From an uncultured Candidatus Saccharibacteria bacterium (lineage in GTDB: Bacteria; Patescibacteriota; Saccharimonadia; Saccharimonadales; Saccharimonadaceae): a stretch of 64,000 nucleotides of DNA. The notes beneath the pieces were generated by a model that saw nothing but the letters and a program-made list of their open reading frames with translations, had not been told where the DNA came from and did not search any database. A program made the translations under genes and the position numbers. This document shows, piece after piece, positions 5,980-62,899 of the stretch. The stretch is from the NCBI GenBank assembly GCA_947428935.1, contig CANENS010000003.1, positions 1-64,000 of the forward strand, written 5' to 3'. Numbering within the stretch: position 1 is the stretch's first letter; the number at the start of each line of letters is the position of its first letter.

Positions 5980-6204
5980 TGTTCATCCTTTCGTTTTCTG
6001 TTATTTAAACATTAGTTTAATGATGCTATTATACCACAAAAACCCAAAAATCTAGTACTTTTTTCAATTTTTCGCAAGCATACTGCAAAACAATTGAATT
6101 CGTTGCGTTTCCCTATTCGAACATAAAAACTCGACAACGCAAATATTATTACACGATAATTCTTCTTTTTTGCAAAATCCCCGCACTCTACTATACATTA
6201 TATA

Positions 6205-6398
6205 CTGTCTAGCTAGGCAGCGGAGGGGGAAACCGAAGTAGCGGTAATTGTCGTACGACAAATAGACATATCCTGGGCTAAGAGTTAGACTGTACGCATG
6301 GGTAGTATCGGAATTAATTGCTACTGACCACACAGAGCCATTAGCTCCAGTATAACCCAAAGGTCTTTCAACGTTAATAAAGATTCCTCCGCTGCGAA
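6205..6398 (-). repeat. Variable cassette C1 (RSG...GFPLRC domain end)
   Basis: Opens with TTCGCAGCGG and ends CCTAGCTAGACAG. The encoded end reads RSGGIFINVERPLGY ... YRYFGFPLRCLARQ. It is one of the more diverged copies: the middle differs in sequence, but ends and length are kept. No gene body is joined upstream; the sequence before it is AT-rich and gene-free. Confidence 0.9.
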
Positions 6399-6924: not shown

Positions 6925-7325
6925 TTAGGATTGCTCCGCCCTACTATGATCGAAGAGGTCCATGCGCTGACTATCAGTCAGCAACTGAACAGTTAGGCAA
7001 CATTTTCGCCTTGTGTGGCAACCGGATCATAGACTCATAGCGCGAACGGAATACGCGATCCCGGGTCTTGCACGAAGCATCGAGGTCAAGCTCCAGCTCC
7101 GGACAATCCCCTACTGAAGATTGTGAATCCCTCTCTATCCCGAATCAATCGGGGCGAGACGATAGTTCAACCGAAGACCAAGGTCTAAGTTGGGAAAAAG
7201 TGGATTCGTTACCCAAAGCTATTGCAGGTGTGTCTTGCCCAGTTCACTTCAAACGCGCCCCTATTGGGCAATTAATTGTCATAAGCGCCTCGGATGGGTG
7301 ACCACGTCCAAAAGCGCTTATCCCC
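6925..7325 (+). ncRNA. Structured non-coding RNA, possibly RNase P RNA
   Basis: About 400 GC-richer bases with no good coding frame but many helices. There is a long-range CTATGATC/GGATCATAG stem around two hairpins (GCTGACT/AGTCAGC and AACTG/CAGTT), plus CCCGA/TCGGG, TTGCCC/GGGCAA and TAAGCGC/GCGCTTA. The end (CCACGTCC, AAAAGCGCTTATC) resembles the conserved 3' part of bacterial RNase P RNA, and GAAGAGGTCC could be the P4 strand. However, the near-universal GGAAA-type P4 sequence is missing, and the last stem pairs locally rather than with the 5' end. RNase P RNA is a candidate, not an identification. A cassette begins 8 nt downstream. Confidence 0.45.
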
Positions 7326-7332
7326 CATTTCG

Positions 7333-7522
7333 TTCGCAGCGGGAACATTAATATCAATAACGGTCGTTTGAGGAACTCTGGCATCAACGGTTACGGATGG
7401 TCTACGCGAGCTAATTCTTCTGATCTTCGTTATGCATACAACCTCAACTTCAATGCGTCTGGCGTCAACCCGTCCAACAACAACAATCGCTGGAACGGCT
7501 TTCCCCTCCGCTGCCTAGCTAG
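7333..7522 (+). repeat. Variable cassette C2, asparagine-rich (template-like)
   Basis: The encoded end reads RSGNININNGRLRNSG ... YNLNFNASGVNPSNNNNRWN. Nearly every position that varies among the other copies is AAC or AAT here. Its 3' end departs from the family right after CCTAGCTAG: it lacks ACAGTAATAAT and has TTTCCCC where nearly all others have TTCCCCC. A DGR template repeat is expected to be adenine-rich at the variable codons and to differ from targets at the 3' end. It lies between the structured RNA and a strong terminator, so it may be transcribed as RNA. No reverse transcriptase is nearby. Confidence 0.9.
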
Positions 7523-7556
7523 TTCCAGTCCCAATCTTCACACATTTTACATAATT

Positions 7557-7598
7557 TTTTGGGTGTCGAAAATTCGACACCCAAAAAATTTTCACTTC
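7557..7598 (+). terminator. Strong terminator after cassette C2
   Basis: AATTTTTTGGGTGTCG and CGACACCCAAAAAATT form a long near-perfect stem around AAAATT, with A and T flanks. It would end transcripts from the structured RNA through C2 and could act in both directions. Confidence 0.85.
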
Positions 7599-8019
7599 CC
7601 TATCTCATCCAAACACACTAAGAAATCTTACACCGTTCTATCTTTCCGTATTAAAATTTCCTAACCCTCTAATCAAGGTGCTCGTTCATATATACTCCAA
7701 ATCAAAGCTCATTTTACATAACCCGAACAAAACCCGAACTAGATAAAAACGGTTTGCTTAGTCTCAGAATTATGGAATAAGCTCTAGAATTATAAAGCTA
7801 AAATTAGTGTCTTTTAGAATTATAAACTCTCAAACAGAATTAGTAGCGCAAAAAGTAGCATTTATGGAATTATAATCAAAGCGGCAAAATCATAAAGTCA
7901 AAATCACATTTTATAGAAATAAATTCAAAGAAAAGAATCCTTTTTTTCGAAACTAAACTCCTAGACAAAATACGAACCCTGATTACTCAAAGTCCGTATT
8001 TCCCTGATTCTCCGCTATT
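7599..8019. other. Gene-free stretch containing the second 128-bp repeat
   Basis: AT-rich, with no coding frame. It holds the 7737-7864 repeat preceded by tandem CCCGAAC words, and lies downstream of pilC, which ends at 8020. Confidence 0.6.
7737..7864. repeat. 128-bp direct repeat, copy 2
   Basis: Matches 84-211 with a single mismatch in the same orientation, 7653 bp away. Both borders are sharp. Confidence 0.9.
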
Positions 8020-16767: not shown

Positions 16768-16959
16768 TTCGCAGCGGGTTTATCTATATCAGTAGTGGTC
16801 GTTTGGGAAACTCTGGCGTCGTCGGCGACGGATAGTCGTCCCGGGCTGATTCTTCTGATGTCACTCGAGCATACTACCTCAGCTTCAATGCATCCAGCGT
16901 CAACTCGTCCAACCCCGTCAGTCGTTGGTTCGGCTTCCCCCTCCGCTGCTCGAGTATAG
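16768..16959 (+). repeat. Variable cassette C3 (with in-frame TAG)
   Basis: Starts TTCGCAGCGGG and ends with the second tail type, TGCTCGAGTATAG. It encodes RSGFIYISSGRLGNSG ... SSNPVSRWFGFPLRC. The conserved Trp codon after GDG is TAG, so the frame is broken and this copy could not be expressed as is. The change is G to A, which is not the adenine-targeted pattern. Confidence 0.9.
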
Positions 16960-17166
16960 ATATTAATAATATATAATAAAAGTTTGCCTTTACTCTATTC
17001 CGAAGCAACGCAGCTATTACTGAAATGAAATTTCAGATAATATATGGTAAAAGATATAAAGATTTCTATTATAATTAGCACTAAGTATAATTATTTTTGC
17101 ATAACGAACTACCGCCCTAACCATTTTCTATTGAAACCAGTTGCTCTTTTCAGAAATCAATTAATG

Positions 17167-17589: not shown

Positions 17590-17674
17590 AATTCCCTCCT
17601 GCCTATTATAACCCATTTTTATCGATACTGAATTATTTAACTTTCATATCATACCCCTTTCTATTATATTATTG

Positions 17675-17871
17675 CCGTCTAGCTAGGCAGCGGAGGGGGA
17701 AGGCGTACCAGCGATTGCCGTAGTAGCTGGACGGGTAGACGCCAGACGCATCGAAGCGGAGGTTGTACGCATAACGAAGATCAGAAGAATTAGCCCGCGA
17801 CGACCATCCGTAACCGTTGATGCTAGAGTAACTCAAACGACCGTCATTGATAACGACGTACCCGCTGCGAA
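17675..17871 (-). repeat. Variable cassette C4
   Basis: Intact ends (TTCGCAGCGGG, CCTAGCTAG). It encodes RSGYVVINDGRLSYSS ... YNLRFDASGVYPSSYY, then GNRWYAFPLRC. Relative to C2, AAC codons have become TAC, GAC, CGC, AGC and GGC while third bases stay C. It forms a tandem pair with C5, 31 bp apart. Confidence 0.93.
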
Positions 17872-17902
17872 GCGCTGCTACTTTTGCTTACGGCTATTAT
17901 TA

Positions 17903-18093
17903 CTGTCTAGCTAGGCAGCGGAGGGGGAAAGCGTTATAGCGATTGCCGTTGAGGGCCGGGTAGACACCAGACGTATCGAAAGCGAGGTAGTATGCAGAAC
18001 GAACACCAGAACTAGCCCGTGATGACCAGTCATAATCGAAAATGCCGGAATTCCTCAAACGGCTCATGTTGATATTGATGAACCCGCTGCGAA
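17903..18093 (-). repeat. Variable cassette C5
   Basis: Intact ends. It encodes RSGFININMSRLRNSG ... YYLAFDTSGVYPALNG, then NRYNAFPLRC. In tandem upstream of C4 in the same orientation. It is open from RSG to the stop, with no upstream gene body. Confidence 0.93.
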
Positions 18094-46536: not shown

Positions 46537-46679
46537 ATTATAAATTCTCAGAGGTAAAATTGATGGTTATTAACTCAATAAAGCCAATTTCGCTCCAATT
46601 TCTTCGAACGCCTCGCGTCCTTGACTACATCGTAGCGTCCAAAAAAACTCATCTTTTGTCTTACAGTCACTTCCACAGC

Positions 46680-46872
46680 TCGCAGCGGGGCCACTAATAT
46701 CGAAACTGGACGCTTGGTCTGGCCTGGTGAACGTGGCTATGATTGGTCATCCCATGCTAAAACGTCCAGTATTACCCATGCATACCTCTTTAGCCTCACC
46801 GTTTCTAGCGTCGGTCCATCTAATGATAGCGTACGCTGGTACGCCTTCCCCCTCCGCTGCCTAGCTAGACAG
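46680..46872 (+). repeat. Variable cassette C8
   Basis: Encodes RSGATNIETGRLVWPG ... RWYAFPLRCLARQ. The middle is among the more diverged. The leader TTACAGTCACTTCCACAG resembles that of C6. Followed 31 bp later by C9 in the same orientation. Confidence 0.92.
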
Positions 46873-47091
46873 TAATAATATATGGTAAAACTAAATCGCC
46901 GAGTTCGCAGCGGGTACATTAACATTAATAATGGTCGATTGAGATATTCTGGCAATAGCGGCGGCAAATGGTCATCACAAACTTCCGATACGGCTCATGC
47001 ATATCGGTTAAATTTCAATGCATCCACTATCTACTCTGCCGCTGGTGATTCCCGTGATCATGCTGTCCCCCTCCGCTGCCTAGCTAGACAG
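46843..47091 (+). repeat. About 200-250-bp duplication, copy 1 (with 62487-62735)
   Basis: From the 3' end of C8 through cassette C9 the sequence matches 62487-62735 on the other strand almost base for base. This includes the spacer encoding MVKLNRRV. The cassettes further upstream (C8 here, C20 there) are unrelated in their variable parts. Confidence 0.9.
46904..47091 (+). repeat. Variable cassette C9
   Basis: Encodes RSGYININNGRLRYSG ... RLNFNASTIYSAAGDS, then AVPLRCLARQ. It uniquely has AVPLRC in place of GFPLRC. A short frame with its own ATG (MVKLNRRVRSG, 46882) runs through it, but there is no ribosome site and no domain upstream. Confidence 0.93.
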
Positions 47092-47135
47092 TAATAATGT
47101 ATGGTAGAAAATTGTTTGTTTATAATTCTAATTTC

Positions 47136-47734: not shown

Positions 47735-47928
47735 TTCGCAGCGGGCTAATTAATATCGAAGTCGGTTATTTAAAACTTTCTGGCCTCGTCGGTTATGGAT
47801 GGTCATCACGGGCTCATTCTTCTGATGTTCGTTATGCATTCTACCTCGACTTCGATGCGTCTGGCGTCTACCCGTCCCTCAACGGCAATCGCTACTACGG
47901 CTTCCCCCTCCGCTGCCTAGCTAGATAG
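47735..47928 (+). repeat. Variable cassette C11
   Basis: Encodes RSGLINIEVGYLKLSG ... FYLDFDASGVYPSLNG, then NRYYGFPLRCLAR. Intact ends. Upstream it abuts the rpsO promoter region. Confidence 0.93.
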
Positions 47929-48041
47929 TAATAATATATAAATATAACATCAGTCAAAAAATCTCTCAGTACACAAATAAAGCCTACCCCACGTCCACAA
48001 AAACACAACACCTCATATGTTACAATAAATACATAGAAAAT

Positions 48042-49904: not shown

Positions 49905-50101
49905 TTCGCAGCGGGCGCCTCAATATCGATAACGGTCGTTTGTGGAGCTCTGGCGTCAACGGTTACGGGCGGTCGTCCCGGGCTAATTCTTCTAGTATTA
50001 ATAATGCATACTTCCTTTTCTTCAATGCGTCTAGCGTCGACCCGTCCAGCAACGGCAACGCTCGCTGGGTCGGCTTCCCCCTCCGCTGCCTAGCTAGACA
50101 G
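49905..50101 (+). repeat. Variable cassette C12
   Basis: Encodes RSGRLNIDNGRLWSSG ... FLFFNASSVDPSSNGN, then ARWVGFPLRCLARQ. It has one extra codon in the Asn run. Followed by the GCATAAA/TTTATGC hairpin and a complete inverted-repeat element at 50167. Confidence 0.94.
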
Positions 50102-50166
50102 TAATAATGTATGGAATAAGCATAAATTGATAAATTGTTTTTTATGCTTGAGTTTTAGGTTGTGCT

Positions 50167-51330: not shown

Positions 51331-51526
51331 TTCGCAGCGGGTTCGTTGATATCAATAACAGCCACTTGGGGTATTCTGGCATCTATGGTTACGGATGGTC
51401 GTCATTGGTCGATTCATCCGATGCCGCTCGAGCATACTATCTCACCTTCCATGCGTCTGACATCTACCCGTCCCTCAGTAATAATCGCTGGAACGCCTTC
51501 CCCCTCCGCTGCTCGAGCATAGATAG
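51331..51526 (+). repeat. Variable cassette C13
   Basis: Encodes RSGFVDINNSHLGYSG ... YYLTFHASDIYPSLSN, then NRWNAFPLRC. Ends TGCTCGAGCATAGATAG (second tail type). It has the full palindrome leader upstream. Confidence 0.94.
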
Positions 51527-51626
51527 TAATAATATATGATTCCAAAAAGGAATAATACCGCCAACAAAATTAATGGCCGCATCCGTCTTTCAAAAAAGAA
51601 TCATCAAATCAACACAAAACAACCAA

Positions 51627-51814: not shown

Positions 51815-52011
51815 TTCGCAGCGGGTTTATCCATATCAATTCCGGTCACATAAATCTTTCCGGCATTTACGGTTACGACTGGTCGTCCCGAGCCAATTCT
51901 TCTGACGCTCATTATGTACACTTCCTCAGCTTTAATAAGACAGAGATCTACCCATCTAACGGCCAAAATTCTCGCTGGAATGGCTTCCCCCTCCGCTGCC
52001 TAGCTAGACAG
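51815..52011 (+). repeat. Variable cassette C14
   Basis: Encodes RSGFIHINSGHINLSG ... FLSFNKTEIYPSNGQN, then [14 protein letters not shown]. Intact ends with the first tail type. Confidence 0.93.
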
Positions 52012-52053
52012 TAATAATGTCAAGCCCTGAAGCTGCCCAAAATCCCCAACCCC

Positions 52054-56027: not shown

Positions 56028-56221
56028 TTCGCAGCGGGTTTGTCGATATCAGCGTCGGCCGGTTGTGGGATTCTGGCGTCATCGGCTATGGATGGTCTAC
56101 GCGAGCTAATTCTTCTAATGTCAATGGTGCATACTATTTCCGCTTCGATGTGTCTGGGGTTACTCTGTCCAACGTCCGCAGTCGCTGGGCTGGCTTCTCC
56201 CTCCGCTGCCTAGCTAGACAG
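56028..56221 (+). repeat. Variable cassette C16
   Basis: Encodes RSGFVDISVGRLWDSG ... YYFRFDVSGVTLSNVR, then SRWAGFSLRCLARQ. Pro of FPLRC is Ser here (CCC to TCC). Followed 34 bp later by C17. Confidence 0.93.
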
Positions 56222-56255
56222 TAATAATAAAACAGAAGCTTAATTAGAAATATTT

Positions 56256-56427
56256 TTCGCAGCGGACTTGTTAATATCGATCTCGGTCGTTTGAGATACT
56301 CTGGCATCTTCGGTTACGGGTGATCGTCGAGGGCTAATTTCTCTAATGTCGCTCGAGCATACTTCCTCTACTTCCATGCGTCTGGCGTCGGCCCGTCCAG
56401 CAACAACGGTCGCTGGAACGGCTTTCC
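56256..56427 (+). repeat. Variable cassette C17, mosaic
   Basis: The first 60-70 bases match C7/C10 (CGGACTTGTTAATATCG; GATCTCGG; AGATACTCTGG). The remainder matches C6, including the in-frame TGA and the end GGCCCGTCCAGCAACAAC. The 3' end switches to CCACCTACAATCT as in C10. It looks like a recombinant of two cassettes. Confidence 0.92.
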
Positions 56428-58529: not shown

Positions 58530-58552
58530 AACTTGTACAGACTGTACAAGTT
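58530..58552. repeat. 27-bp-type palindrome, copy 7, fused to a cassette
   Basis: AACTTGTAC and GTACAAGTT around AGACT. The last TT is also the start of TTCGCAGCGGG of cassette C18, so the palindrome abuts the cassette with no spacer. Confidence 0.93.
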
Positions 58553-58744
58553 CGCAGCGGGCTCGTCAGTATCAACAGTGGCGCAATACGATATTCCAAT
58601 GTTGGTGGATACGCCTGGACTTCGCGAACTATCTCATACGGTACTCAACTTGCATATAGGCTCAGCTTCGATGCCTCAGTTACTGACCCAGCCAATGGTA
58701 GCAATCGCTGGAACGGCTTCCCCCTCCGCTGCCTAGCTAGACAG
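58551..58744 (+). repeat. Variable cassette C18
   Basis: Encodes RSGLVSINSGAIRYSN ... YRLSFDASVTDPANGS, then [14 protein letters not shown]. With palindrome 7 before it and hairpin plus inverted-repeat element after it (to 58924) it is the most complete unit in the window. Confidence 0.94.
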
Positions 58745-58808
58745 TAATAATGTATGTTTCAAACATAAGCATAAATTGTTTTTATGCTTGAGTTTTAGGT
58801 TGTGATGT

Positions 58809-62298: not shown

Positions 62299-62486
62299 TT
62301 TTTCTCACCTCCCTTTCCCCAGAGGATACACACCAACAGTTAAAATAGCAACTCAATAAAAAAAGGTGTACTCTCAATCGCGCCTGTCTTCGCCCAAAAT
62401 TTAAGATGCGCCGCCCTATTTCCCTTATTATAACACATATTTTGCGCAGCACCTCCAAATTCCCCACCCTACTATATGATTATATA

Positions 62487-62674
62487 CAGTCTAACTAGGC
62501 AGCGGAGGGGGACAGCATGATCACGGGAATCACCAGCGGCAGAGTAGATAGTGGATGCATTGAAATTTAACCGATATGCATGAGCCGTATCGGAAGTTTG
62601 TGATGACCATTTGCCGCCGCTATTGCCAGAATATCTCAATCGACCATTATTAATGTTAATGTACCCGCTGCGAA
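62487..62674 (-). repeat. Variable cassette C19, near-identical to C9
   Basis: Encodes the same protein end as C9, including AVPLRC, and the same MVKLNRRV spacer upstream. The tail differs by two bases (CTAGTTAGACTG). Confidence 0.93.
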
Positions 62675-62735
62675 CTCGGCGATTTAGTTTTACCATATAT
62701 TATTACTGTCTAGCTAAGCAGCGGAGGGGGAAGGC
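62487..62735 (-). repeat. About 200-250-bp duplication, copy 2 (with 46843-47091)
   Basis: Inverted copy of 46843-47091, covering cassette C19, the spacer and the 3' end of C20. The identity fades inside C20. Confidence 0.88.
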
Positions 62736-62899
62736 GTTAAAACAATCGCTATAATATGACGGATAAGTACCGGATGCGCCGAAGTATAGGTTATACGCAT
62801 AACTAACATTATCAGTATCTGTTCGATTTGACCAGCTGTAGTTTGCTATACCAGTTTCATTTAGATGCCCAGTCTTAGTAATAATACGCCCGCTGCGAA
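62706..62899 (-). repeat. Variable cassette C20
   Basis: Encodes RSGRIITKTGHLNETG ... YNLYFGASGTYPSYYS, then DCFNAFPLRCLARQ. One of the more diverged copies, AT-richer in its middle. Its leader runs to palindrome copy 8 at 62970. Confidence 0.92.

Follow-up and report, generated by a model that had tools for sequence, protein, structure and literature searches.

In the usual view of diversity-generating retroelements (DGRs), the target sequence is overwritten and each new variant is made at the cost of the previous one. The variable repeats (VRs) of the DGRs described lie inside coding target genes (PMC8144416), and those of the Treponema denticola DGR number two to seven, all of them within target genes (PMC4891356). 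Silent donors are the basis of Borrelia vls, Neisseria pilE/pilS and Treponema pallidum tprK, the last with 53 chromosomal donor cassettes that feed one expression site, and no reverse transcriptase (RT) belongs to those systems as summarised in the sources cited (PMC11499132, PMC3899283, PMC10063172). A paper joining a DGR with a silent archive was not found in the open-access literature searched.

Here we compare with these systems a Saccharibacteria genome (G000; a draft of 27 contigs, ~96% complete, with several contigs ending in cassettes) and in particular one 64,000-nucleotide stretch of it, called the window below. We consider it likely that a DGR here maintains an archive of silent VRs throughout the genome, which recombination reshuffles and from which it supplies the expressed gene. 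As in the DGRs of Bordetella phage BPP-1 and Patescibacteria clade 2 (Roux et al. 2021, PMC8144416), there is an 8ub7-related RT, a template repeat and adenine-specific variation of C-terminal VRs; unlike in the DGRs described, ~150 VRs are silent and scattered and serve one full-length target, the accessory gene has no match in the families searched, and template and RT occupy separate loci. Several remote VRs with one common template are also known from T. denticola (PMC4891356), whereas here there are ~155 mostly non-coding cassettes. With Borrelia vls (PMC11499132) and Neisseria pilE/pilS (PMC3899283) the genome has in common an expression site, silent promoterless cassettes, segmental exchange and common edges; vls cassettes, however, form contiguous arrays, while those found here are scattered genome-wide, and a reverse-transcriptase footprint marks their variants. 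Chromosomal donor cassettes and one expression site likewise recall tprK (PMC10063172), although that system, as described there, includes no retroelement and about three times as many cassettes are present here.

The ~155 cassettes of the genome, counted by reading the stretches around cassettes, occupy more than 20 contigs and both strands and are not clustered beside the expression site. Each is a C-terminal fragment of one secreted FISUMP surface protein, made up of ~60 codons, a stop codon and ~15 nt, and the silent ones have no start codon. Their edges are sharp, with TTCGCAGCGGG on the 5' side and, on the 3' side, CCCTCCGCTGC followed by the stop codon and the ~15 nt, and cassette bodies are exchanged between these fixed edges. 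Both edges hold a 7-bp inverted repeat (GCAGCGG/CCGCTGC), which may merely reflect the RSG and LRC codons. A long form (L044, L069, L075, L085, L184 and L186) carries an additional 155 nt of the expression gene upstream, beginning at an identical base; where this form was read, the upstream AAGGGGCGCTT is an inverted copy of the pre-cassette AAGCGCCCCTT. An exact search of viral contigs with the cassette 3' tail gave no match.

The window contains 19 full cassettes, the template repeat at 7333-7522 being counted among them, and almost all are intergenic. On the plus strand, silent cassettes lie at 16768-16970 (with an in-frame TAG), 46679-46879, 46904-47098, 47735-47935, 49905-50108, 51331-51533, 51815-52018, 56028-56228 (C16, in tandem with and upstream of C17) and 58551-58751 (with a near twin at G000:C6:31271), and on the minus strand at 6198-6398, 17668-17871 (close to the template repeat in sequence), 17896-18093, 62480-62674 (identical to 46904-47098) and 62699-62899. 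The four that concern us most, all on the plus strand, are C6 (32323-32507, overlapping an unannotated 165-aa frame on the opposite strand), C7 (42511-42714), C10 (47136-47307) and C17 (56256-56427). Other repeats in the window are an array of the hexamer AGCAGA at its very start (1-60) and a 134-nt repeat at 84-217 and 7737-7870 (98% identical), seen also at G000:C10 near 14.8-15.2 kb (L062), whose sequence is unrelated to the cassettes. An Rfam search of the window returned tRNAs only.

Variation among the cassettes is concentrated at adenines in AAC/AAT codons. Among the 50 cassettes closest in sequence to 7333-7522, both A positions of these codons vary and the third base is kept. Such adenine-centred variation is the signature of a DGR. 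When the plus-strand sequence at 7333-7522 was taken as template and compared with its 15 nearest cassettes, mismatches fell at 284 of 675 A sites and, among the remaining sites, at 119 of 1950 (odds ratio 11.2, p=1e-96); in this role it ranked first of the 140 cassettes tested. It is adenine-rich (AAC/AAT), has Asn codons at nearly every variable position, and its homology to the cassettes stops before their stop codon. Its surroundings, too, are those of a template repeat (TR): two upstream elements are common to this locus and to the TR loci of three relatives (G013, G067 and G121), and an element at 7079-7098 (plus strand) has a position conserved in related TRs. A long-range RNA helix with arms at 7115-7123 and 7532-7540 (plus strand) would enclose the TR, with compensatory changes in 3 of 9 pairs across four genomes; taken alone, no single long-range helix at the template does better than shuffles, and the weight lies in the common position and the compensatory changes. 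Downstream, a terminator-like hairpin at 7555-7588 (plus strand) was missed by a simple terminator scan. That 7333 is a mere Asn-rich cassette was considered and rejected on the strength of its top rank among the 140 as template and of flanks matching the TR loci of the three relatives. Two or three fixed non-A positions (T16C, T70G, T169C) separate 7333 from most cassettes, so it is not an exact template for every one of them; at offset 169, where a difference of the IMH/IMH* kind was sought at the 3' end, the template has T and all 12 of the 12 closest cassettes have C.

An intact DGR-type RT of 392 aa, with the motifs IGNLTSQ and YVDD, is encoded at C2:96888-98066 of the same genome, next to an intact accessory gene of 344 aa. 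It was found with a profile built from the RTs of relatives, which showed the earlier failure of PF00078 to match anything in this genome to be a false negative. The best PDB match of the RT is 8ub7 (E=1.6e-22), which we take to be the Bordetella phage BPP-1 DGR RT complex. The accessory ORF, searched in its own version and in that of G013, matched no Pfam, NCBIfam or PHROG family, nor did the Avd model match it, the sole signal of that model coming from G024 (L154), in an unrelated protein; Avd, though frequent in DGRs, is not regarded as obligatory in all of them. The RT's own neighbour is a VR-like cassette and not the template, which lies elsewhere. The cassettes' main source of diversity is thus a DGR, as given by adenine-specific substitution relative to the template in the window and by the intact RT and accessory gene.

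Related genomes carry the same footprint. In G013, G067 and G121 an Asn-rich repeat stands directly downstream of the RT, and this RT-adjacent template ranked first in each of the three; mismatches of the cassettes to it numbered 167 at A and 24 at non-A sites in G013, 348 and 165 in G067, and 165 and 107 in G121. Three cassettes of G013 have 13-16 changes, every one at A, and two of these cassettes lie at contig ends. Libraries of about 100 cassettes occur in only six of the 114 genomes of the genus (88-160 candidates at first look, with no more than 58 in any other genome), and the same six have the strongest accessory hits; they may form one clade and hence would not represent six independent events. 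The opposite layout is seen in G014, G065, G088, G089 and G092, with ~29-33 surface-protein matches, many full-length frames and few silent cassettes. Among individual loci, L192:999-1354 of G013 has two cassettes that meet tail to tail at a near-perfect palindrome, and L153 (G013:C12) has a different kind of RT whose neighbours, as read from the ORFs, are terminase-like and portal-like phage genes. L154 (G024:C22) holds a second type of DGR, with an Avd-like protein, an Lcl_C-like repeat in the RT frame and adjoining tail-like genes, and is possibly contamination, G024 being ~7% contaminated.

C17 illustrates exchange among the dispersed cassettes. It had been described in the earlier note as a mosaic whose first third matches C7 and C10 exactly at diagnostic bases and whose remainder matches C6, including a private nonsense TGA, and the mosaic itself was confirmed. 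At the 28 sites that separate C6 from C7, C17 agrees with C7 twelve times, with C6 once, with C7 three times and with C6 twelve times (0000000000001000111111111111), a pattern reached in 1 of 200,000 shuffles in a maximum-breakpoint permutation. C17 is thus C7-like up to 56298 and C6-like from 56323, and the breakpoint lies in 56299-56322. Exactness of the first third held at 15 of the 16 diagnostic sites in 56256-56298, the sole exception being 56290 (offset 34), where C17 has T as do C6 and the template; identity with C7 and C10, which do not differ from each other across 172 nt, extends over offsets 0-33 and 35-66. Agreement with C6 is complete over the 126 nt at offsets 43-168 (56299-56424) and stops short of the end of the cassette: the extreme 3' end (GGCTTTCC and then ACCTACAATCT, from 56428 on) is that of C10 and not of C6, and CCACCTACAATCT, at the 3' edge of C17 (56426-56438), occurs elsewhere in the window only at C10 (47306-47318). 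C17 therefore consists of C10-like ends flanking a C6-like centre. The TGA (56321-56323) is indeed private, being found in C6 and C17 alone among 140 near-full cassettes. None of the ~155 cassettes contains the whole of C17, the best whole-length match being 92%, in an assembly whose ~96% completeness and cassette-bearing contig ends leave room for an unassembled copy.

The earlier note had taken this mosaic as direct evidence of recombination or gene conversion between dispersed cassettes. Such exchange is supported more widely: a second pair (C18_7516/C22_240) has 126 nt in common in the same manner as C17, and tracts of at least 45 nt in dissimilar cassette pairs number six, against 0-1 when columns are shuffled. 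C17 itself is not proven to be its product, because no outside donor was found for the first 43 nt of C6 (best match 88% among the cassettes of the assembly) or the last 40 nt of C7 (92.5% at best when C10 is set aside). A C17-like parent could have given rise by recombination to each of C6 and C7, and we regard it as a serious possibility, slightly on the unfavoured side, that C17 came first and that C6 and C7/C10 derive from it by recombination. Besides the missing donors, the two segments differ from the template mostly at A, as fresh retrohoming tracts laid on a C17-like cassette would; against it, C17 also bears the 3' edge of C10, and the base at 56290 is compatible with either order. 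The question concerns the order of events and is compatible with an archive maintained by a DGR.

Exchange also reaches the full-length gene. In the whole genome only one cassette (C2:79412-79582) lies within a long frame. The frame encodes a protein of 560 aa whose N-terminus resembles a signal peptide and whose C-terminal end is the cassette; we call this gene expressed as the sole full-length gene in the genome. The protein passes the FISUMP (TIGR02145) cut-off (49.7 bits against 41.65), and PF09603 gave a weak, partial match that was nevertheless enough to expose the gene. A sequence search of the protein against the PDB gave no match, and its closest named relative, from a Candidatus Saccharibacteria assembly, matches it at 43% and is encoded on a contig that ends just before the cassette. 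A variable repeat thus stands at the C-terminus of a coding gene, as in the target of a DGR, and exchange tracts run among the cassettes and the expressed gene, as in silent-cassette systems. The expressed cassette is identical to silent cassette C4_11268 over 199 nt, with unrelated flanks on both sides, and the same holds in G024, whose own expressed cassette is identical to one silent cassette over 212 nt, the next best match there being 81% over 98 nt. Copies of the flank of the expression gene are joined to differing bodies at the same edges. The expressed cassette has a non-A identity to the template of 0.55, a divergence too great for a newly made copy. The silent-locus model after pilS or vlsE proposed in the earlier note accordingly stands in part, with one full-length gene carrying a cassette, its exact silent twin and unrelated flanks, and falls short in that the diversity comes mainly from a DGR.

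The cassettes could instead be a graveyard of the DGR, inert by-products of stray retrohoming or of variable-repeat duplication with no role as an archive, their exchange with the expressed gene being incidental homologous recombination. Dispersal on both strands would suit such an origin, as would the truncation of some cassettes and the strong divergence of many. We nevertheless think it unlikely, given that in two species one silent cassette is an exact twin of the expressed one and that in-frame stops occur in just 5 of 140 cassettes, where substitution at random from the template would predict 73%, an expectation that is inflated because mutated AAY codons never give stops.

That C17 is an artefact of mixed-strain assembly is very improbable. 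The draft state of the genome (27 contigs, probably from a metagenome, several of them ending in cassettes) would make such errors conceivable, but C17 is internal to a contig of 94 kb, there is another mosaic of 126 nt, and an adenine footprint cannot arise from assembly. Gene conversion of the pilS/vls type without any DGR, the proposal of the earlier note, would explain the silent cassettes, the one full-length gene and the exchanged tracts with common edges, yet is hardly credible and as a complete account is refuted by the adenine-specific footprint in four genomes; an intact RT with accessory gene and template also speaks against it.

The genome shows diversification specific to adenines, an intact DGR, a library of silent cassettes and the exchange of bodies between fixed edges, and the archive maintained by a DGR remains our preferred reading. 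In its fuller form, towards which we lean with somewhat less assurance, the system would have two stages: the DGR would write variants into a library that is silent, dispersed and heritable, and recombination would transfer its entries singly to the one expressed surface gene, so that mutation is kept separate from expression and old variants are remembered. RNA of the template would be reverse-transcribed with errors at adenines, and the mutated cDNA would home into silent cassettes. Recombination at the DNA level would then shuffle the cassettes, as C17, C6, C7 and C10 suggest, and one cassette would be copied into the single expressed gene, a step whose direction, like the expression itself, we infer. 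The outcome would be a surface protein with a switchable tip.

If this holds, an ultra-small bacterium that depends on a host would gain, through its DGR-written silent archive, memory in addition to mutation, and two mechanisms of diversity that have so far been described apart would be united. The Saccharibacteria would then offer a clear target to watch, with one surface gene, ~150 stored tips and one template.
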